Assembly (NCBI GenBank): GCA_004357655.1
Contig: SMVQ01000232.1
Location: 1 to 64,000, forward strand
From: Planctomycetota bacterium
GTDB lineage: Bacteria > Planctomycetota > UBA1135 > GCA-002686595
DNA: 64,000 nucleotides
Reading direction: 5' to 3'
How positions within the stretch are numbered: the stretch's first letter is position 1; every line of letters starts with the position of its first letter. Shown one piece after another: positions 28,906-41,214 of this stretch. The position numbers were made by a program, and so were the translations under genes. The notes under the pieces were generated by a model. It ran no database searches. It was not told the DNA's origin and saw nothing but the letters and a program-made list of their open reading frames with translations.

Positions 28906-29062
28906 ATTTTCCGCCTCAACTTCCGCGTGGACGCCGTCCGGAGCGGGTCGCGAGCGCATCGGGCGTGCGTCGGGCGTGCATCTGGCGTGCCCGCGGCAGT
29001 GCTCCGCGCGCGACGTGGTGCCCTCCGATCCGTGGAGCCCGGCGCCGCACGATCGTTTTCCA

Positions 29063-30394
29063 GTGGACTTCTCGAAGCATATCCAGAAGGCGGAAGAAGC
29101 CGCCCGCAAGCGGAACTACGACTTCGCCGTGCAGCTCTACCAGCAACTGCTCGAGATCGACCCCGACCAGGGCGAGGCGCGCGGCGGGCTGCGGCGCGCA
29201 CTGAAGAAGCGGTTCGAGTCGAAGAAGCGCGGCAAGCTGCTCACTGCGCTGAGAGGCGCGACGCCCCTGGCCTTGGCGAAGACGCTGGCCAAGGCCGGCA
29301 AGCACGCGGCCGCGGCCCGCTCCTTGGAGACGTACCTGGCCTCCAACCCCCTGGACGTGGATGCGAACCTGCTCCTCGGGGTCTCGCTCGAGTCGGCGGG
29401 GTACTACGGCTCCGCCCTCGCCGTGTACGAATTCCTGGCGGAGATCGCGCCGCGCAACGCGGCGGGGCTGAAGCGCGCCGGGGCGATGATGCACCGCAAG
29501 GCGGACCACGCGAAGGCGCTCGAGTACTACGAGCGCGCGCTCGAGGCCGATCCCCGGGACCGGGACGCCCTCAAGGCGCGCAAGGACCTCGCCGCCGAGG
29601 CGGCCCTCACCGCCTCCCACGCGGGCTCGGTGGACCACAGCCGCGACCAGATCAAGGACAAGGAGGAGGCCCAGCGGCTGGAGCGTGCGCAGCGCATGCA
29701 CCTGTCCGACGAGGAGCTCCAGGATCAGCTCGCGAAGCTCCAGGACCGGTACGCCGAGGAACCGACGAGCGTCGACCTTCTGATCGAGATGGCCGACGTC
29801 CACGAGAAGTTGCGGGACGCGGAGGCGGCCGTCGACGTCCTCGAGCGGGCTCTGCAGTACCGGAAGGACTCGATCGACCTCCGAGCGCGGGTCGGCACGC
29901 TGAAGTTGAAGGTCCTGAAGAAGGCCGTGGCGCGGGCGGACAAGGCCGGCGACCGGGCCGCGGCCGACCGGCTCGAGCGCGAGCTGCGGGAGTTCGAGGT
30001 CAAAGAGTACCGGCGCGGCCTCGAGCTACACCCCGCCGACGCTGCCCTGAGGCTCCAGCTCGGTCGCGCACTCCTGCGCCAGGAGCTCTTCGACGAGGCG
30101 GCCGCGGAGCTGCAGAAGGCCGTGCACGACCCGCGCCTGCAGGCGGACGCGCTCTTCCACCTCGCTCTCTGCTTCCAGAAGAAGGGCTTTCTCGATCTCG
30201 CCCGCAAGGAGTACTTGCGGGCCCTCGATGGACACCAGAGCGTGGACGAGCGCGCGCGGGAGATCCTGTACAATCTCGGGGCGATCGCCGAGGCCGAAGG
30301 AGACACGGCCGAAGCACGCTCCTGCTACGCGCGGGTGTACGCCGTCGACATCGGCTACCGCGACGTGGCGACCAAGATGGAGCAACTGAAGTAA
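29063..30394 (+). CDS. TPR-repeat protein
   Basis: The 443-residue product is built of tetratricopeptide repeats with charged linkers. A first repeat starts at the N-terminus (KAEEAARKRNYDFAVQLYQQLLEIDPDQ), and more follow around ALEYYERALEADP, AVDVLERALQY and LARKEYLRALDGH. Between the repeats, about residues 190-240 look like a coiled coil (RDQIKDKEEAQRLERAQRM). It has no signal peptide and is probably a cytoplasmic scaffold. The start is uncertain: GTG 29063 opens directly on the first helix, while an in-frame upstream start at 28976 would add 29 unusual residues. It is followed 2 bp later by rpsT. Confidence 0.8.
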   Translation: MDFSKHIQKAEEAARKRNYDFAVQLYQQLLEIDPDQGEARGGLRRALKKRFESKKRGKLLTALRGATPLALAKTLAKAGKHAAAARSLETYLASNPLDVDANLLLGVSLESAGYYGSALAVYEFLAEIAPRNAAGLKRAGAMMHRKADHAKALEYYERALEADPRDRDALKARKDLAAEAALTASHAGSVDHSRDQIKDKEEAQRLERAQRMHLSDEELQDQLAKLQDRYAEEPTSVDLLIEMADVHEKLRDAEAAVDVLERALQYRKDSIDLRARVGTLKLKVLKKAVARADKAGDRAAADRLERELREFEVKEYRRGLELHPADAALRLQLGRALLRQELFDEAAAELQKAVHDPRLQADALFHLALCFQKKGFLDLARKEYLRALDGHQSVDERAREILYNLGAIAEAEGDTAEARSCYARVYAVDIGYRDVATKMEQLK

Positions 30395-30396
30395 CC

Positions 30397-30645
30397 ATGC
30401 CCAACAACAAGCAAGCGAAGAAGCGGGTGACCCAGGACGAGGGGCGTAGCGCGGCCAACAAGGTCGTGCGCTCCCGGATGCGTTCCGCGATGAAGAAGGT
30501 TCTGCAGGCCGAGTCGCCCGAAGCGGCGCGCGAGGCCCTGTCCGAGGCCACGAAGCGCGTGGACAAGGCGGCCAAGAAGAGAGTCATCCACGCCAACTCG
30601 GCCGCGCGCAAGAAGGCCCAGCTCACCCGCGCCACGAAAGGCTGA
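30397..30645 (+). CDS. rpsT: 30S ribosomal protein S20
   Basis: S20 binds the 5' domain of 16S rRNA. The 82-residue, very basic helical product starts MPNNKQAKKRVTQDEGRSAA and ends with VIHANSAARKKAQLTRA, the standard S20 pattern (N-x-A-x-x-K-K-x-x-L). It starts 2 bp after the TPR stop, which places S20 expression under the TPR promoter or a promoter inside that gene. Length is normal. Confidence 0.95.
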   Translation: MPNNKQAKKRVTQDEGRSAANKVVRSRMRSAMKKVLQAESPEAAREALSEATKRVDKAAKKRVIHANSAARKKAQLTRATKG

Positions 30646-30657
30646 TCCGCCTCGCCC

Positions 30658-30996
30658 ATGGGTGTCTTCGAGACGAGCGACGATCACCCCGGACGTTTCC
30701 ACCGGCCCGTTCGCGTCCCCGTGGCCAAGCGAGACGTCTTCGGCGCCGCGCAGGAGATGTGCGCGGACCTCGCCTGGACCGTCCGGGAGGTCGACGATGA
30801 GAGTCTGACCATCGTCTGCGAACGCAGCGGTGGTCTGCTCGGCGGCACGTCCAGGATCACGGTCCGGGTGGACGGACCCGACGGCATCCCGTCATCGACG
30901 ACGACCGTGCGCTCCGAGTCCACGGGCGGCGTGCTCTCGCGCGACAAGTCGATCGTGGCCGAGTTCGTGAAGAAGTTCACGAATCGGGTCTGCTGA
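30658..30996 (+). CDS. Small conserved-looking protein, unknown function
   Basis: The 112-residue product has no signal peptide or membrane segment. A beta-rich pattern runs through DLAWTVREVDDESLTIVCE, SRITVRVDG and TTTVRSEST, followed by a helix SIVAEFVKKFTNRV. The layout loosely recalls DUF1499-type domains, but I cannot confirm that. It starts 12 bp after rpsT on the same strand and its TGA stop is directly followed by palindrome 3. Confidence 0.65.
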   Translation: MGVFETSDDHPGRFHRPVRVPVAKRDVFGAAQEMCADLAWTVREVDDESLTIVCERSGGLLGGTSRITVRVDGPDGIPSSTTTVRSESTGGVLSRDKSIVAEFVKKFTNRVC

Positions 30997-31089
30997 TACG
31001 GAGCCAGGACAAAATCCGCCGCCACTTCCGACTGCCGGTGCGGAGCACCGGCAGTCGGAAGTGGCGGCGGATTTTGTCCTGGCTCCGTA
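30997..31089. repeat. Long perfect palindrome, element 3 (93 bp)
   Basis: The palindrome starts TACGGAGCCAGGACAAAATC directly after the TGA stop of the preceding gene, turns at CGG, and ends with the exact reverse complement at 31089. Each arm is 45 bp. It is identical over all 93 bp to element 4, which lies on the other side of the neighbouring toroid gene. The convergent gene's stop is 31 bp away on the right. Confidence 0.95.
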
Positions 31090-31120
31090 CTCTCAGCTAG
31101 CGACGACTCGACGGAGGGCC

Positions 31121-32392
31121 CTAAGGCGTCCTCCCATACCGAAACGGCGTCTCGAGGCACAGCGCCATCAGCGCCGTCGAATACACGCGCCCCCCCGCGT
31201 ACCCCCACGGCCCGATCGGATCCCAGGACCCTGCATCCTCCCCGGTCTTCACCTGGTTGGGGAGGAGCGCGCGCTCCATCGCCGCGTGCCACGCATCCCA
31301 GAGCTCGCCCCCCATCTGGTGCATCGCGTACGACCCGAAGTACCAGTAGACCATGTCGCAGCCGTACCCCTCCGTATCCCACTCGGGCAGCTTCTTCAGG
31401 ATGAGCTGCGCGTGCTTGGCGAGCATCGGCTGCCGCTCGGCCCGCTCGCCGAGTTGGATGCGGACCGCGAGACCCACCGCCGTCATCGCCTCGCCCCGCT
31501 CGGGGGGCATGTGCAAGTTCACGCCCACGACGCGCGAGCTCACCGAGCCCCGCGAGTCGTAGCCGACGCGGCCGGACTCCGGGTCGGTGACCGCGCGGAT
31601 CCAGGCGAGCGCGCCCTCGTACGCGTCGTCGTCCATTTCCGCCAAGGCAACCCCGGCGTGTTCCGCGGCGGTGAGGGCCGTCACCATCCAGCCCGTGACG
31701 GAAGTGTCGTTGTCGCCGACCGGTGGTACGTCGTAGCGCCAGGCACCGTAGGGGTTGCGCGCGCGCACGATCAGCTTCACCGCTCTCCGCAGGCTGGACT
31801 CGAGCCGCGCCGAGGGGGAGAGGTCCTGCGCCTCCGCCACGGCGAGGGTCGCGATGGCGTGGTTGTAGAGGAACATGTAGCCCCGTTGCTCGCCGAAGAG
31901 TCCCGTCTCGAGGTCCTGGTGATCACCGAGCCAGGCGAGGGCGCGCGCGACCGTCGCGGCGTGGCGACCCTCGGCCTGTGTGTCCCCGTTGCCCAGGAAC
32001 GCGAGGATGGCGAGCCCCGTCAGGCCTACGTCGTTGACCGAGGGATACCGCGTGATGGCGGGCGGTGGACCGGCCGTTTTCCACGAGCCGTCCGGTTGTT
32101 GCAGCTCCGCGAGCGAGGGGCGCCTGCGCTCGAGCTTCCACGAGCCGTCCGACTCCTGCTGCGCGGCGAGCCACGCGAGCCCGCGCTCCAGGGCCAACTC
32201 GGCGCCGGCGCGGCAGTTCGTCCGCATGAGCTCCCGATCGGCGAAGCGTCCCGCGAAGCGCGCGCGCTCGGTCTCCGTGCGCGCTCGTTCGGGGGCCGCG
32301 CCGGACGCAGGCGTGTCCTGAGCGGACACCGCCTGAGCGACCGAGCCCGCGAGGAACAGGACGACGCACGACAGGATGGCTCGAGAGCCCAT
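31121..32392 (-). CDS. Secreted squalene-cyclase/prenyltransferase-like alpha-toroid protein
   Basis: The 423-residue product has a signal peptide (MGSRAILSCVVLFLAGSVAQAVSA) and then the (alpha/alpha) toroid repeats of the prenyltransferase/squalene cyclase superfamily. QW-type motifs (Q-xxx-G-x-W) appear in QESDGSW and QQPDGSW, and AWRYDVPPVGDNDTSVTGW and SWDPIGPWGYAGGRVYSTAL are strongly kept among the three paralogues here. The canonical catalytic DxDD is not visible, so it is probably not a terpene cyclase. It lacks the N-terminal anchor of its two neighbours. It is flanked on both sides by identical palindromes (3 and 4). Confidence 0.85.
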   Translation of the reverse strand: MGSRAILSCVVLFLAGSVAQAVSAQDTPASGAAPERARTETERARFAGRFADRELMRTNCRAGAELALERGLAWLAAQQESDGSWKLERRRPSLAELQQPDGSWKTAGPPPAITRYPSVNDVGLTGLAILAFLGNGDTQAEGRHAATVARALAWLGDHQDLETGLFGEQRGYMFLYNHAIATLAVAEAQDLSPSARLESSLRRAVKLIVRARNPYGAWRYDVPPVGDNDTSVTGWMVTALTAAEHAGVALAEMDDDAYEGALAWIRAVTDPESGRVGYDSRGSVSSRVVGVNLHMPPERGEAMTAVGLAVRIQLGERAERQPMLAKHAQLILKKLPEWDTEGYGCDMVYWYFGSYAMHQMGGELWDAWHAAMERALLPNQVKTGEDAGSWDPIGPWGYAGGRVYSTALMALCLETPFRYGRTP

Positions 32393-32458
32393 GGGGTCTC
32401 CTTTCGGTCAGGATTGCGTGACGATGACCCCTAACGACCGAGGCGGCGCGAAGTTCAG

Positions 32459-32551
32459 TACGGAGCCAGGACAAAATCCGCCGCCACTTCCGACTGCCGG
32501 TGCGGAGCACCGGCAGTCGGAAGTGGCGGCGGATTTTGTCCTGGCTCCGTA
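32459..32551. repeat. Long perfect palindrome, element 4 (93 bp), identical to element 3
   Basis: This 93-bp palindrome repeats element 3 base for base, including the loop. Outside it the flanks differ (CAG on the left and CTTG on the right), so only the palindrome is shared. It lies 15 bp beyond the stop of the anchored toroid gene (minus, stop at 32567) and 66 bp upstream of the secreted toroid gene. Confidence 0.95.
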
Positions 32552-32566
32552 CTTGCCGGGCCCGGA

Positions 32567-34129
32567 TCACCGGGCCCCGAGCACGCGCGCATACCGGAAG
32601 TACACCTCGAGGCAGAGCACGGAGAGCGCGGTCGAGTAGACGCGCCCCCCGTAGTGGCCCCAGGGGCCGAGCGGGTCCCACGAACCCTTCGCGTCGCCCG
32701 TCTCGATCTGCGAATCGAGCACGGCTTTCTTCATGGCCCGGTTCCAGCTCTTCCACCACTTGCCGCCCATCTGGTACATGGCGTACGACCCGTAGTACCA
32801 GTAGTACATGTCGCAGCCGCCGGCCTCGGGCTCCCACACCGGCAGGGACCTCAGCATCAGGTCGGCGTGCTTGGCCATGATCGCGTGGTCCCGCGGGTTC
32901 TGGCCGAGGAAGAAGCGACAGAGCAGGCCCACGGCCGTCATCGCCTCCCCTTTCTCCGGCGGGAAGTGGTCGTTGATGCCGACGACGCGCGAGCTGAGCG
33001 AACCCGGCGAGTCGTAGCCGACGCGGCCGCTCGCGGGGTCCGTGGCTTCGTCGAGCCACTGCAGGGCGCCGGCGAACGCGTCGCCCTCGACCGCGAGTCC
33101 GGCCTCCTCCGCGGACTTCAGGGCGAACACCATCCAGCCCGTGATCGAGGTGTCGTTGTCGCCCACGGGCGGCACGTCGTAGCGCCAGGCGCCGTACGGG
33201 TTGCGCGCCTGCATGATGTAGTTGGCGGCCTTCTGCGCGGTGTTCTTGATGAGCGGCGACTTCGAGAAGTAGTACGCCTCGCAAATCGCGAGCGTGGCGA
33301 TGCCGTGGTTGTAGAGGAAGGTGGTGCCGAGCTCCTCGCCGAACAGACCCGTCTCGTAGTCCTGCTGCTCGCGCAGCCACTTGATGCCGCGGGTGACGGT
33401 CTCCTTGTAGGCCCCCTGGCGCATCGTGCTGCCGTCGCCCAGGAAGGCGAGCAGGGCGAGGCCGGTGAGCCCGACGTCGTGGAGCGCTTCGCCGCCGTTC
33501 TCGCAGACGTCCGAGCCCAGCTTCCCGCAGTTCTGCATGAACCCGTCGGAGTCCCACGAGCCGTCTGGCGACTGGTGCCGAGCGAGCCACTCGAGCCCGT
33601 CCTCGAGCGCTTTCTGAGTGCCCACCCCACCGTTCCCGCGCCCGCGCCCCCGACCGAAGCGCATGCCGAGCTTGCCCCTGCCCCCGCCGAACCCGAGGAC
33701 GCCGTTGAACGCCACATCGTCGAACGGCGTGTCCAGCAGGGAATCGGACGGGTCGCCCAGCGCCGGCTCGATGTCCGTGTCCGTGTCGTCGGGAGTCTCA
33801 TTGATGTCGACATCCTGCACGACCGGCTCGTCATCGGGCTCCTCCGCCGGCTCGATCACCGGTTGGGGCTCCTCGTGTGGCTCCTCGTAGACCTCGGGCG
33901 GCGTGGTGAGCGTGGCGCGGATCTCCACGGGTTCCTCATCCGTGAACAGGGCCCAGGGGATCGCCTGGATGATGAGGAAGAGTACGAGGTGCGCCGCCGC
34001 CGAGATGGCGAGCCAGGGAGCGCGACTCATCCAGTCGTACAGGACGTCGTTGAACGACTCCTCCTGCTCCCAGGACTTCGGCAGCGTCGTCTCGACGCGG
34101 AGCTCGGAATAGACGGATTCCCTGCGCAT
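32567..34129 (-). CDS. TonB-like membrane anchor fused to squalene-cyclase-like toroid (paralogue A)
   Basis: The 520-residue product has a cytoplasmic N-terminus, one membrane helix (about 38-60) containing AISAAAHLVLFLII with S43 and H47, then an acidic, Pro-containing periplasmic linker (about 65-140) and a Gly/Arg-rich hinge. The toroid domain follows from about 155 (QSPDGSWDSDGF, AWRYDVPPVGDNDTSITGW). The SxxxH spacing in the helix is that of TonB, where it couples to ExbB/ExbD, and the linker also recalls TonB. I take ATG 34129, with GGAGG 5 nt upstream; an in-frame TTG at 34141 overlaps that Shine-Dalgarno. DxDD is not visible. The role is inferred: a force-coupled envelope toroid protein. 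Confidence 0.83.
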   Translation of the reverse strand: MRRESVYSELRVETTLPKSWEQEESFNDVLYDWMSRAPWLAISAAAHLVLFLIIQAIPWALFTDEEPVEIRATLTTPPEVYEEPHEEPQPVIEPAEEPDDEPVVQDVDINETPDDTDTDIEPALGDPSDSLLDTPFDDVAFNGVLGFGGGRGKLGMRFGRGRGRGNGGVGTQKALEDGLEWLARHQSPDGSWDSDGFMQNCGKLGSDVCENGGEALHDVGLTGLALLAFLGDGSTMRQGAYKETVTRGIKWLREQQDYETGLFGEELGTTFLYNHGIATLAICEAYYFSKSPLIKNTAQKAANYIMQARNPYGAWRYDVPPVGDNDTSITGWMVFALKSAEEAGLAVEGDAFAGALQWLDEATDPASGRVGYDSPGSLSSRVVGINDHFPPEKGEAMTAVGLLCRFFLGQNPRDHAIMAKHADLMLRSLPVWEPEAGGCDMYYWYYGSYAMYQMGGKWWKSWNRAMKKAVLDSQIETGDAKGSWDPLGPWGHYGGRVYSTALSVLCLEVYFRYARVLGAR

Positions 34130-34248
34130 TGGAGCCTCCAAGTTGATTCGCGGGCCCGTCCTGTTCGGAGCGGGCCGGGAGAGGAGCGGAGGAGCGAACT
34201 CCTCCGGGCTTGGAACTATCCGAACGTCGCAGGGCGCGGGGGGTTCAG

Positions 34249-34382
34249 TACGGAGGCGGGAACGAATCCGCCGCCACCGTGCGATCTCGCACCACCCCGA
34301 TCAGGAAGAAACCCTAGGGTTTCTTTCTGATCGGGGTGGTGCGAGATCGCACGGTGGCGGCGGATTCGTTCCCGCCTCCGTA
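34249..34382. repeat. Long palindrome, element 5 (134 bp, longest of the family)
   Basis: It starts TACGGAGGCGGGAACGAATC and ends with its reverse complement. The 66-bp arms have one G-T type mismatch close to the centre (GGAAGAAACCC against GGGTTTCTTTC) and no real loop (TA at the turn). It keeps the terminal TACGGAG and the shared CCGCCGCCAC block but has a longer unique inner part. It lies between the two anchored toroid genes, 10 bp beyond the stop of paralogue B on the minus strand. Confidence 0.93.
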
Positions 34383-34391
34383 CTGGCGGTA

Positions 34392-35957
34392 CTAGCGGGC
34401 GCCGAGCACGCGGGCGTACCGGAAGTACACCTCGAGGCAGAGCACGCTGAGCGCGGTCGAGTAGACGCGGCCGCCGTAATGGCCCCAGGGTCCGAGCGGG
34501 TCCCACGAGCCCTTGGCGTCGCCCGTCTTGACCTGCGACTCGAGCACGGCCTTCTTCATGGACACGTTCCAGCCCTTCCACCACTTGCCGCCCATCTGGT
34601 ACATCGCGTAGGTGCCGTAGTACCAGTAGTACATGTCGCAGCCGTACTTCTCCGGATCCCACACGGGCAGCGACTTCAGCATCAGGTCGGCATGCTTGGC
34701 CATGATCGACTCGTCCTTCGGATCCTGGCCGAGGAAGAAGCGGCACAGCAGGGCTACCGAGGTCATCGCCTCCGCCTTCTCCGGCGGGAAGTGATCGTTG
34801 ATGCCGATGACACGCGAGCTCATGGAGCCCTCCGAGTCGTAGCCGACGCGGCCGTTCGCGGGATCGGTGACCTCGTCGATCCACTGCAGCGCACCGACGA
34901 ACGCGTCCTGCTCGACCAGCAGCCCGGCATCCTCGCCCGACGTCAGGGCGAACACCATCCAGCCCGTCATCGAGGTGTCGTTGTCCCCGACGGGCGGCAC
35001 GTCGTAGCGCCAGGCGCCGTACGGGTTGCGCGCCCGCATGATGTAGTTCAGGGACTTCTGCGCCGTGCTCCTGATGAGCGGCGACTTCGAGAAGTAGTAC
35101 GCCTCACAGACGGCGAGCGCGGCGATGCCATGGTTGTAGAGGAATGCGTGGCCGATCTCCTCGCCGAACAGACCCGTCTCGTAGTCCTGCTGCTCGCGGA
35201 GCCACTTGATGCCGCGGGTGACGACCTCCTTGTAGGGCCCCCGGCGCATCGTATTGCCGTCGCCCAGGAAGGCGAGGAGCGCGAGGCCGGTGAGCCCTAC
35301 GTCGTGGAGCGCTTCGCCGCCGTTCTCGCAGACGTCCGAGCCGATCTTCCCGCAGTTCTGCATGAAGTTGTCGGAGTCCCACGAGCCGTCCGGCGACTGA
35401 TGGTGCTTCAGCCACTCGAGCCCGTCCTTGAGCGCCTGCTGGGTGCCCGACCCGCCGGCCGCGCGCAGGTTGCGTCGCCCGCCGAACCGCCCACCGAACT
35501 TGCCGCCCGCGCCGCCACCGATTCCGATGACGTCGTTGAACGCCTTGTCGTCGAACGGGGAGTCGCTGAACATGTCCGGGTCGCCCTCGACCGACTCGTA
35601 GTCCTCGTCCACGTCCTCTTCGTTGTGGTCCGAGATCTCGAAGTCCTGGACGATGGGCTCCTCCTCGACCTCCTCTTCCTCGATCTCCTCCTCGATCTCC
35701 TCGGGGGGGTCTTCGAAGATCTCCGGCGGCACGTCGAGGCGCGCTTGGATCTCCGTGGGGTCCTCGTTCGAGAAGAGCGCCCACGGAACCGCCTGAATGA
35801 TCAGGAAGATGACCAGGTGGGCGGCCGCGGAAATCGCGAGCCAGGGGGCGCGACTCATCCAGTCGTAGAGGACGTCGTTGAAGGTCTCCTCCTGCTCCCA
35901 CGCCTTCGGCAGAGTGGTCTCGATGTGGATGTCGTCGTAGGCGTGGTTAATGCTCAT
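34392..35957 (-). CDS. TonB-like membrane anchor fused to squalene-cyclase-like toroid (paralogue B)
   Basis: The 521-residue product parallels paralogue A domain for domain: the membrane helix again has S43 and H47 (AISAAAHLVIFLII), then an even more acidic linker (EEIEEEIEEEEVEEE, about 76-115), a Gly-rich hinge, and the toroid with QSPDGSWDSDNF, WRYDVPPVGDNDTSMTGW and SWDPLGPWGHYGG. The toroid domains of A and B are nearly the same and end identically (ARVLGAR), pointing to a recent tandem duplication. The linkers have diverged much more. No exbB or exbD is present in the window. The start ATG 35957 has GGAG about 10 nt upstream. Confidence 0.83.
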   Translation of the reverse strand: MSINHAYDDIHIETTLPKAWEQEETFNDVLYDWMSRAPWLAISAAAHLVIFLIIQAVPWALFSNEDPTEIQARLDVPPEIFEDPPEEIEEEIEEEEVEEEPIVQDFEISDHNEEDVDEDYESVEGDPDMFSDSPFDDKAFNDVIGIGGGAGGKFGGRFGGRRNLRAAGGSGTQQALKDGLEWLKHHQSPDGSWDSDNFMQNCGKIGSDVCENGGEALHDVGLTGLALLAFLGDGNTMRRGPYKEVVTRGIKWLREQQDYETGLFGEEIGHAFLYNHGIAALAVCEAYYFSKSPLIRSTAQKSLNYIMRARNPYGAWRYDVPPVGDNDTSMTGWMVFALTSGEDAGLLVEQDAFVGALQWIDEVTDPANGRVGYDSEGSMSSRVIGINDHFPPEKAEAMTSVALLCRFFLGQDPKDESIMAKHADLMLKSLPVWDPEKYGCDMYYWYYGTYAMYQMGGKWWKGWNVSMKKAVLESQVKTGDAKGSWDPLGPWGHYGGRVYSTALSVLCLEVYFRYARVLGAR

Positions 35958-36158
35958 GTTCGGAGGCTCCAGCTGGGCTCCTGGCCCCGTGGGTGGGGCC
36001 GCTCGGGGCAGCCTTGAATGACTAACGCGCCCGGGCGGAAAGGGTTCAGAGTATATCCAGGGCGTGTGACGGGGACTACGACCGCCGCGATCGCAGTCCC
36101 TTCAGTCCGAGCCCGGTTCCGTCGAGCGCCGGCGGGCAGGCCTGCTGTCCCGCCCCCG

Positions 36159-37253
36159 CTACTCCTCCCCGGTCGGCCGCAAGCTCGGCGGCCACACGTA
36201 CACCGAATTGGCGACGCCCTTCAGGGCCACCCGCAGGCGGAGCTGGTCGAGCGAGCGCAGGATCCCCGCCCGGACCCGCCTCTGCAGCGCGGCGTCGAGG
36301 TAGTCCCTGGCCGAAGTGCTCTCGATGCGTTCGCGCATCAGGTAGACCCACACGCCGGACAGCCCCCTCTGCCAGCCAAGCATGGGGGCGGAGAACTCGC
36401 CCACCGCGGCCGTCGACGCGAACTCCCAGAGGGCGGCCGAGCGGTGCAAGAAACGCGAGGTCTGTTCGAGCTCGGTCAGCGTCCGCGGCTCCAGGATCCC
36501 GTCATCCGGCGCCGCGCCCCACAGTCGGGTGAGGTCCGTGAAATCCGTGCCGCTCCGCGCCTCCTCGATGAGCGTCCGCGCGAGCTCCAACGTGCTCTCC
36601 TCCCCCCCGTTATCCTCGACCAGCAGCACGAGCTGCTGGAGCACGACTTGGAGCGGCATCATCCCGACCATCGCCCGCTCTGCCGGGTCCGGCGACTTCA
36701 ACGCGAGCTGGTAGGCGGACCAGTTCTGGCCGGGCCGCAGGTTCCGGTCGACGCTGACGCGGCCCGACGCACCGGCCGCCCTGCCCGTCTGCGCCCACTC
36801 CCAGCTCTGGATGTAGAGCCGCTGGCGGAGAAACTTCTGCAATTGCTCGGGCCGCTGTCCGAGGGCCGCGAACTCCTTGGATGCCGCGACGGGCCCACCC
36901 CGCAGCTCGACCTCCTCCGCGAACAGGCGCTGCTCCCCGCGCCGTACCAGCTCGGGATCGAAACCCATGTCCTGGCCCGCCTGCACCTTGAGCAGCAACA
37001 GGTAGCGTTCCTCGAGGTAACCAAGCCGGATCCGCGCCAGATCCTCGGGCCGCGAGAGCCCCATGGCGTTCGCCCTCTGCGCGGTGAACTCTTCGAGCTC
37101 GCGCAAGGTCACGATCTGGTCGCCGACGACCGCTGCGACCCCATCGACGGTCACCTCCACGGGGGCCTGGGCCGGGTCCGCCGGATTCCGGACGGGCCCC
37201 TGGCCCTGAGCGAGGCCGAGGCTCAGACAGCCGGTCGCAATGAGGTAGATCAT
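36159..37253 (-). CDS. SurA-like periplasmic chaperone / degenerate parvulin
   Basis: The 364-residue product has a signal peptide (about 1-16) and a SurA-type N-terminal domain starting VDGVAAVVGDQIVTLRELEEF. A helical region follows, then a parvulin-like segment (ARTLIEEARSGTDFTDLTRLWG and VGEFSAPMLG) in which several usual parvulin positions are altered. It probably helps fold envelope proteins; isomerase activity is doubtful. ATG 37253 overlaps the mfd stop (ATGA), so it is the third gene of the rnc-mfd unit. Confidence 0.75.
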   Translation of the reverse strand: MIYLIATGCLSLGLAQGQGPVRNPADPAQAPVEVTVDGVAAVVGDQIVTLRELEEFTAQRANAMGLSRPEDLARIRLGYLEERYLLLLKVQAGQDMGFDPELVRRGEQRLFAEEVELRGGPVAASKEFAALGQRPEQLQKFLRQRLYIQSWEWAQTGRAAGASGRVSVDRNLRPGQNWSAYQLALKSPDPAERAMVGMMPLQVVLQQLVLLVEDNGGEESTLELARTLIEEARSGTDFTDLTRLWGAAPDDGILEPRTLTELEQTSRFLHRSAALWEFASTAAVGEFSAPMLGWQRGLSGVWVYLMRERIESTSARDYLDAALQRRVRAGILRSLDQLRLRVALKGVANSVYVWPPSLRPTGEE

Positions 37254-40200
37254 GGTTCGTTCGCACCCATTCCCACGGGGTGAGGTTCGGCCGGCAACAA
37301 GCCCTCGAACCAGTCCAGGGCCGCTTCCGCGGTCTTTATACCCGCTGGCACGACGAGGTTGGCGACGCCGCGCCGGATCTTGCGGAGCTCGACGTCCAGG
37401 CCGCTGAAGAGCCGCTCGAGCGCGACGGGGTCCTCGTACTGGACGAGGTAGGCGGTTTCCTGCCAGGCGAGGCGCGTCAAGTGATAGGGCGCGAGCCGGG
37501 CCGCCAGGCGGAACATCCGGAGGAGCGTGAGCGCCTCGGGCGGCATGCGGCCGAAGCGGTCACGCAGGGTCGCCTGCATGCGATCCCGGTCCTCGTCCGT
37601 CGCGATCTGGGCCATCTGGCGCAGGAGCTCGAGGCGCGTCTCCTCGCTGGGGATCCAGGCCTCGGGGAGGAACGAGGCGAGGCCGAGCTCGAGCTCGACG
37701 CCGCCGTCGCGCTCCTCGGGTCGGCGCTGCACCGCATCGAGCGGCTCGCCCGACTGCAGGCGCTCGATCGTCAGTTTCAGGAGGCGGCAGAACATGTCGT
37801 AGCCGACCGCGGCGATGTGTCCCGACTGCTCGGCGCCGAGGATGTTGCCCGCGCCGCGGAGCTCGAGGTCCTTCACGCTGATGCCGAAGCCGGCGCCGAG
37901 GTGGTTCAGCTCCTCGAGCGCCTTCAGGCGCTGGCGCGCGATGTCCCGGATAGGCTTGTGCCGCTCGAGGAGCAGGTAGCAGTAGGCCTTGTGTTCGCCG
38001 CGTCCGACGCGCCCCCGTAGCTGGTGCAGCTCGGAGAGGCCGAAGCGGTCCGCGTCGTCGATCAGGATCGTGCCGGCCGTCGGGATGTCGAGGCCGTTCT
38101 CGATGATCGTCGTCGCGACGAGCACGTCGGTCTCGCCGCTCCCGACCGAGTCCATCACCGCTCGCAGGTCGCGCGAGCTCATCTGTCCGTGGCCTACTGC
38201 GAACGTGCAGTTCGGCGCGAGGTGCTGCAAGCGGCGCGCCACCGCTTCGATCGAGGACACGCGGTTGTGGAGGAAGAACACCTGCCCGCCGCGGTTCGTC
38301 TCGCGCAGGATCGCCTCGCGCACCAGGTCGTCGTCGTCGGAGTAGCCGAGCAGGGTCTCGATCTCCTGGCGGCCCTCCGGGGGCACGGTGAGGGCGGAGA
38401 TGTCGCGGATGCCCGACAGGGACATGTGGAGCGTGCGCGGGATCGGCGTCGCGGTCAGCGTCAGCATGTCGATCTCGGCCCGGAGCCGCTTGAAGTGCTC
38501 CTTGTGAGCGACCCCGAAGCGCTGCTCCTCGTCGATGATGACGAGGCCGAGCCGCTTCCATGCGATGTCCTGCGAGAGGATGCGATGCGTGCCGATCAGG
38601 ATGTCGACGGCGCCGCGCGCCGTCCGCTCCACGACGTCCTTCGCCGCCTTGCCGGTGACGTAGCGGCTGAGCATGGCGACCTCGACCGGGAAGTCGGCGA
38701 GCCGCTCGGAGAACGTCTCGAAGTGTTGCTGCGCCAGCACGGTCGTGGGCACGAGCACGGCCACCTGCCCGCCGCCGTTCACGACGCGGAACGCGGCGCG
38801 CACGGCGAGCTCCGTCTTCCCGAAGCCGACGTCGCCGCAGAGGAGGCGGTCCATGGGCCGCGGGCCGTAGAGGTCGGCGCTGATCTCGATGTCGACCTGC
38901 GCCTGGTCGACGGTGTCCTCCCAGGGAAACGAGCCGAGGAGCTCCTTCACGAGCTCCTCGTCGGCGCTCCACGAGGGGCGCTCCTTCATGGCACGTTGCG
39001 CCTGGATCCCGATCAGGTCGCTGGCGAGATCGAAGAGGCCGCGCTCGACCCGCTCCTTGCGCTTCCGGAACGTCGTGCCGCCGATCTTGTCGAGCGCGAG
39101 CGTCGAGGCGCCGGCGCCGATGTAGCGCTGCACCATGTCGATGCGTCCGGCGGGTACGAAGAGGCTCACCCCATCTGCGAACTCGAGGTGCAGGTGCTCT
39201 TCGTTGCCGCCACCGCGCTCCACGCGCTCGAGCCCGATGAAACGCGCGAGGCCGTGGACGGCGTGGACGACGAGGTCGCCCGCGCGCAGCTCGAAGAACG
39301 ACTGGAGCGCGCGCACGCGGTGGTGGTGCTTCTTGCGCGCGAGGCGGCGCGTGCCCATGAGCCCCTTCAGCTCCCGGTGGTTGACGACGACGAGCCCGAG
39401 GGCGGGCAGGCGGAAGCCCTTCGTCACGGTCCCGAGCGCCGTCTCGAGCCCGGGCACGCCGCCCTGCTCGTCCAGGTATTCGCGGAAGCGCCGCGCCTCC
39501 ATGGCGGTGTTGCAGAGCGCGAGGACGCGCGTACCCTTGGCGAGCTCCGCGCGCAGGGCGCCCGCGGCCTGGCGCATCCCGAGCTCGAGGCCCTGGACCG
39601 AGCGCGTGTCGAAGGACAGATCCTCGCCGGGCAGGCTCTGGAGCGCGAGTCGGCGGTGTGCGGCGCGCGTGCCCACGAACAGCCGCAGTTCGCGCTCGTG
39701 TGCCGGCGACTGGATGCGCAGCGCCTCGGCGCGCTCCTCGACGCGCAACGGCTCGATCTCGACGAACACCGTGTCGGCCGAGAGGAGCTGCCCCGCCTGC
39801 ACGCCCGCACCGTCCTCGATGCTGCCCGTGTCCGCCGCGAGGCATAGCTCGAGCTCCGGGCTCGACTCGATCGAGCGCTGGTCGGCGGGTTCGAACGTGC
39901 GGAGGGATTCGATCTCGTCCTCGAACAACTCGATGCGGACGGGGAGCTCGGAGGCGAACGGGTAGAGGTCGAGGATGTCGCCGCGCAGGGAGACTTCGCC
40001 CGGCGCCTCGGCGAGCGGCTGCCGTGTGTAGCCGAGCCCGACGAGGCGGGCGAGCAGCTCTCCGGCGTCGAGCAGGTCGCCGACCCGCAACTTCAGGAAC
40101 TCGTGCTCCAGGTCGCGTACGGTCGGGATCGGCTGGAGCATCGCCAGCACCGACGCGACGAGCACGCGCGGCCGCTCCGCGGGCTGTCCGGCGAGGCGCC

Positions 40201-40549
40201 CCGCCACGACGAGTCGCGCGCGGATGGCCTCGACGTCGGCGTGCGCGCCCCGGCCGCCGCCGCTGTAGCTCTCGCGCGCCGGGAAGAGCGTCGCCTCCAG
40301 CCCGAACGCGAGGAGGTCGTCTCGAAACGCGTCGGCCTCGTTGTCGGTCGAGGTGACGACGAGCAGGGGCGCTTGCGAGCGCGCCGCGAGGGCGGCGAGC
40401 GCGAGCGCCTGCGACGAGCCCCACAGGTTGCCGGCGCAGACGGCTGCCTGCTGCGCGTGCACGCGCTCGAGCCGCGAGATGTCCGGCCAGGCCGGCAGGG
40501 CCGCGGCGTCGAGGACGACCCCGGGCTGCCCGTCGTCCGACGCGCTCAC
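37250..40549 (-). CDS. mfd: Transcription-repair coupling factor
   Basis: Mfd removes RNA polymerase stalled at DNA damage and recruits UvrA. The 1099-residue product has the UvrB-like N-terminal domains ([20 protein letters not shown]), the RNA polymerase-interacting CarD-like region ([20 protein letters not shown]) and the RecG-like translocase motor. In the motor, [16 protein letters not shown] is Walker [10 protein letters not shown] is the DEEQ box, and [17 protein letters not shown] is motif VI. The TRCF C-terminal domain follows. GTG 40549 overlaps the rnc stop (GTGA); reading upstream of it falls inside rnc. Length is normal. Confidence 0.96.
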
Positions 40550-41214
40550 GCCGGCTCCTGTTCCTCGAGCACGAGCAGCGCCTCGTACGCCGCCCACTGC
40601 TCCGCTTCCTTGCGCGTGCGGCCCCATGCGGGTGGAAAGCGCTCATCCCGGTCCCCGGTCCGGACCTGGGCGCACACGAGGAACGCCCGCGCGTGCGCGA
40701 GTCCACGGCGCTCGAGCTCGACGTACTCCGGCGGCGTCCCCCAGTGCTTCTGGCTGAGCTCCTGGAGCGCCTGTTTCGAGTTCACGCCGCACCGCTGCTC
40801 GCGCACTTCGGTGAGCGGCTCGGCCAGCGTCGTCATCACGAACGCATGCGCGCGCTCGAGCCCGCCGTCGAGGTAGACGGCGCCGAGCACGGCCTCGTAC
40901 AGGTTGGCGAGCACCGAGCGGGAGAGCGTCCGGTTCGAGAGTCCGCGTCCGACCCGGGCCAGGCGCTCCAGCCCGAGCTTCCGCGCCGCCTCCGCCAGCG
41001 TCTTGCGCGACACCACCCACGCCTTGAGCTCGGTGAGGTCACCCTCCGCGAGGTCCGGGTGGTGCCGGAAGAGCTCCTCGGCCACGATCAGATCGAGGGC
41101 GGCGTCACCCAGGAATTCGAGCCGCTCGTTGTCCGCTCGCGACTCCATGGATGAGTGCGTGAGCGCGAGCTCGAGCAGCGCGGGATCGCGGAAATCGTGG
41201 GGGAGCGCTGACAT
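40546..41214 (-). CDS. rnc: Ribonuclease III
   Basis: RNase III cuts double-stranded RNA, including rRNA precursors. The 222-residue product has the signature NERLEFLGDAALDLI (residues 29-43, with E33 and D37), the second acidic site near NLYEAVLGAVYLDGG, and a C-terminal double-stranded RNA-binding domain (NSKQALQELSQKHWG to RKEAEQWAAYEALLVL). It overlaps mfd in GTGA and is the first gene of a three-gene unit. It could also process the long palindromic hairpins found at 3' ends in this window; that is inference only. Confidence 0.95.
   Translation of the reverse strand: MSALPHDFRDPALLELALTHSSMESRADNERLEFLGDAALDLIVAEELFRHHPDLAEGDLTELKAWVVSRKTLAEAARKLGLERLARVGRGLSNRTLSRSVLANLYEAVLGAVYLDGGLERAHAFVMTTLAEPLTEVREQRCGVNSKQALQELSQKHWGTPPEYVELERRGLAHARAFLVCAQVRTGDRDERFPPAWGRTRKEAEQWAAYEALLVLEEQEPA

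Follow-up and report, generated by a model that had tools for sequence, protein, structure and literature searches.

Tandem toroid genes with a predicted TonB-like anchor

The window analysed (64,000 nucleotides of a Planctomycetota genome assembly, contig SMVQ01000232.1, positions 1 to 64,000) contains three tandem toroid genes on the minus strand, downstream of genes which we read as rnc, mfd and a SurA-like chaperone (36159-37253, minus strand, no Pfam hit). The first encodes a 521 aa protein (34392-35957, hereafter protein 1) and the second, 78% identical to it, encodes protein 2, of 520 aa if translation begins at the ATG at 34129 (32567-34129) or 524 codons if it begins at an upstream TTG at 34141. 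Both read RAPWLAISAAAHLV and carry PWLAISAAAH, which places Ser and His at residues 43 and 47 in each protein (counting protein 2 from the ATG), within a membrane helix lying at 35790-35843 in protein 1 (S43 at 35829-35831, H47 at 35817-35819) and 33962-34015 in protein 2 (S43 at 34001-34003, H47 at 33989-33991). The single helix with S43 and H47 in both proteins was noted in a preliminary description of the sequence and is confirmed here. The third paralogue (31121-32392, 423 aa), which that description missed, is 53–55% identical to protein 1 and begins with a signal peptide in place of the anchor, and we interpret it as a soluble periplasmic protein. Anchorless paralogues also lie in tandem with anchored ones at two other loci (L195:10970-12130, where the signal peptide was also read, and L080:5601-6696), suggesting a mixed assembly. 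The order rnc-mfd-SurA-like-toroid, converging on a TPR gene and rpsT (window 28976-41214; loci L118, L119 and L120), appears to be kept between two of the families compared, f1 and f5.

An AlphaFold2 model of protein 1 based on 38 homologues predicts a short N-terminal helix at residues 26–36, a single membrane helix at 39–56, disorder over 68–168 (pLDDT below 50) and a helical toroid at 170–517 (34407-35450) with pLDDT of about 90. The disordered linker (residues 62–168, 35454-35774) is rich in Glu and Pro. The only Pfam domain exceeding its cut-off is SQHop_cyclase_C, and this only just (29.0 and 30.2 bits for the two proteins against a cut-off of 26.1), while the full-length squalene-hopene cyclase model TIGR01507 scores 24–25 bits against a cut-off of 431. 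The DxDD catalytic motif of these cyclases was not seen on reading the toroids, as the preliminary description had noted, the equivalent stretch being GDNDTS. The fold assignment is supported by structural comparison using Foldseek, in which the nearest solved structures are (alpha/alpha) toroids including AprG, GH76 mannanases, squalene-hopene cyclases and sugar epimerases, and by a profile of the family, which matches squalene-hopene cyclase (2sqc) with E = 2.5e-9.

Conservation of the SxxxH helix

Among 94 full-length homologues identified in two searches (some being copies of one locus retrieved twice, leaving 90 unique segments), Pro38 and His47 are invariant (94/94) and Ser43 is conserved in 91, the remaining three having Ala, while the positions between and around them vary freely. 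By contrast, only 4 of 411 other membrane-helix segments in the same loci contain SxxxH, two of these being in what appear to be respiratory-complex subunits. Phylum-wide, the toroid was found in 111 of 119 genomes and the motif in over 30 families; in 128 alignable unique helices the His position is always His, with 119 Ser and 9 Ala. However this profile-based count omits seven helices identified by eye, in which His is replaced by Asn (four sequences in family f8 and one in f29) or lost (f43 and f66). Some of these lie inside ExbBD clusters, and may reflect either altered docking or loss of coupling. It is interesting to note that Asn is the substitution reported to replace His20 of TonB fully (Swayne & Postle 2011, cited in PMC8928145), and that true TonBs of the same order carry the same SxxxH. 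Three other large toroid ORFs (L085, L087 and L094) lack the motif helix, and no relatives were found in phage records.

TonB and TolA possess a strand just after the helix, the motor box, which engages ExbD or TolR (PMC12204202). In the toroid family the residues 23, 25 and 27 positions after the His are hydrophobic in 93%, 77% and 78% of the 90 unique segments, with mostly polar residues between them, followed by Pro and acidic residues; in protein 1 this corresponds to residues 69–76 (EIQARLDV, 35730-35753), with Ile70 lying 23 residues after H47. The position is similar to that in E. coli TonB, in which the corresponding sequence is probably ISVTMVTPADLEPP, starting 25 residues after His20. 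AlphaFold2 did not model a strand here, thus we regard this as a motor-box-like pattern rather than a structure. Profile comparison with the N-termini of true TonBs aligned Ser and His exactly, but the segment is too short to prove homology (hhalign probability 34%), and a BLAST search with the anchor listed matches only on toroid-sized ORFs (the first nine residues of the query were not those of the protein, but nearly all listed matches start at residue 10 or later). We therefore propose that the anchor works like that of TonB, not that it is a TonB.

Co-occurrence and linkage with ExbB and ExbD

The genome containing the window (78% complete, in 357 contigs) has four ExbB and four ExbD hits, and all 61 genomes sampled from the order contain the toroid, ExbB and ExbD. 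In the smallest of these (about 2–2.5 Mb) there is typically one ExbB with two ExbD and two or three toroid hits. Co-occurrence alone is weak evidence, however, since true TonB (PF03544, 56/61 genomes) and TonB-dependent receptors (60/61) are also present. The partner ExbB and ExbD proteins match solved TolQ/ExbB and TolR/ExbD over the pore segments, including the PxIDV aspartate of ExbD, thus the motor looks intact, although Trp38 of ExbB, a TonB contact in E. coli, reads Leu in these proteins by our alignment.

Toroid genes are linked to exbB and exbD in two arrangements. In the first, found in several families, the order toroid-TPR (about 950–1000 aa)-TPR (about 370 aa)-ExbB-ExbD-ExbD occurs on one strand in three genomes (G007, G019 and G097), with the same layout less completely read in G012, G049, G055 and contig C90 of G003; on contig C102 of G003 a toroid pair lies head-to-head with TPR-TPR-ExbB-ExbD-secretin. 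Of these linked toroids, those of G019 and G055 have SxxxH, those of G049 and G003 have AxxxH, those of G007 and G012 have Asn for His, and that of G097 has neither residue; the His is also lost in the toroid of G155. In f5 genomes the toroids remain next to mfd and the ExbBD cluster is flanked by TPR-fused secretins (PF00263). Such secretins lie beside the TPR-TPR-ExbB-ExbD-ExbD cluster at loci L112 to L117 (on both sides in L112, L113, L115, L116 and L117) and L110:2516-5164, several being matched by tblastn only, forming a proton-motor plus secretin cluster. The genome containing the window has the same cluster on contig C84, reading secretin tail (L097:2-193, also matched by tblastn only), TPR, TPR, ExbB, ExbD and contig end. 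In most genomes, however, the window-type pair is not beside exbBD, and no exbB or exbD was found in the flanks examined (up to 5 kb) around its closest orthologues.

In the second arrangement, on contig C89 of the genome containing the window, TPR-ExbB-ExbD is followed directly by a 1249 aa protein (L096:6032-9781) with TolB-like PD40 beta-propeller repeats, two adjacent membrane helices (the second being FLVSVVVHLLLMWW), a long linker and a toroid. In this architecture a strand-like segment similar to that described above starts about 26 residues after the His. The same protein, or its N-terminal part where a contig ends, was read in more than 20 other genomes of the order, with His kept in all those whose helix was read and Ser in most, the three f5 genomes G030, G041 and G050 having Ala. 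These loci were selected because ExbB and ExbD were adjacent, thus the linkage count is not an unbiased frequency, although the motif count was not subject to this selection.

Possible role as force transducers

The preliminary description had suggested an envelope protein driven by the proton motive force (PMF) through ExbB/ExbD, with a toroid as its working end. This interpretation is supported: the genome contains both motor proteins and SxxxH is conserved in orthologues, while the linkage in two arrangements and the motor-box-like pattern add support that was not available to that description. We consider it probable, although inferred without experiment, that these proteins are PMF-driven envelope force transducers of TonB/TolA design. 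In this view the N-terminus is cytoplasmic, the helix docks on the outside of an ExbB pentamer through His47 and Ser43 (Ser16 and His20 of TonB contact ExbB TM1 in cryo-EM, PMC12215075), the strand-like segment pairs with the periplasmic part of ExbD, and proton flow through ExbBD pulls or turns the helix. The linker would pass this force across the periplasm to the toroid, which would grip a ligand or partner at the wall or outer membrane (a glycan, a lipid, or the TPR/secretin proteins of the same cluster), although such transmission is one step further than coupling to the motor. A glycan or lipid ligand is no more than plausible given the invariant Trp, Tyr, Arg, Asp and Glu residues of the toroid and the sugar enzymes among its structural neighbours. 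In the genome containing the window the likeliest motor partner is the cluster on contig C84, while the motor on contig C89 would drive its own toroid transducer with a built-in propeller.

The proteins share with TonB a single N-terminal helix with PW....SxxxH, a Pro/acid-rich linker and the presence of ExbB/ExbD in the genome, and may share a motor-box strand about 25 residues after the His, but the toroid replaces the TonB_C domain (PF03544) and no linkage to TonB-dependent receptors was seen in the loci read. They share the SHLS helix with TolA, although only its Ser/His half is conserved, the last Ser position being mostly Pro, and they lack the TolA C-terminal domain. The second arrangement adds a PD40 propeller (as in TolB) and a TPR protein (as CpoB) beside ExbB/ExbD, but here propeller, motor helix and toroid form one polypeptide. 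The nearest precedent is a 2025 survey (PMC12204202) describing vWA-domain force transducers of the PVC group, which combine an SHLS helix, disordered linker and non-TonB globular end and are encoded near TPR-TolQ-TolR-TolR genes. The idea of a swapped effector domain is therefore not new, but the effector here is a predicted alpha/alpha-toroid rather than vWA, and that paper does not mention toroids or squalene-cyclase-like domains; nor did literature searches for ExbB with squalene-type proteins return anything relevant. Compared to squalene-hopene cyclase and prenyltransferase toroids, which share the fold and weak sequence similarity, these proteins have one toroid, no DxDD, and are tethered and, by inferred topology, periplasmic.

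It is possible, though we think unlikely, that the helix docks on ExbBD as proposed but the protein is a passive or regulatory subunit, such as a scaffold or sensor, which bears no force. The tandem copies, the soluble paralogue and the accompanying TPR proteins do resemble subunits of an assembly; however a disordered linker of about 100 residues between motor helix and domain is the layout of TonB, TolA and vWA transducers (PMC12204202) and is not needed for a scaffold. Less likely still is a membrane-tethered enzyme acting on terpenoids or glycans, with an SxxxH unrelated to ExbBD. The enzyme-like conserved residues of the toroid and its structural neighbours would fit, but this does not explain the invariant His and near-invariant Ser in an otherwise free helix, the motor-box-like pattern, or exbBD adjacency in two arrangements, and there is no DxDD; an active toroid would in any case not exclude motor coupling. 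Binding of a cofactor such as haem, or of another membrane partner such as the protein's own paralogue, by the intramembrane His/Ser could account for an invariant His and for the occurrence in pairs, but is very unlikely given the natural His to Asn changes and the same spacing in true TonBs of the order.

A more speculative reading, which we regard as doubtful but not excluded, is that a phylum-wide class of toroid force transducers exists in Planctomycetota in two forms, a stand-alone tandem set and a single-polypeptide 'Tol machine' (propeller, motor helix and toroid) in the operon TPR-ExbB-ExbD, with the stand-alone set working with an ExbBD-TPR-secretin cluster so that proton force acting through a toroid opens or loads an outer-membrane secretin.

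If the transducer interpretation is correct, it adds a second non-TonB working end to proton-driven transducers and gives a function to a protein family found in 111 of the 119 Planctomycetota genomes sampled, for which we found no functional report. It also offers a concrete candidate for what does work across the wide planctomycete periplasm.
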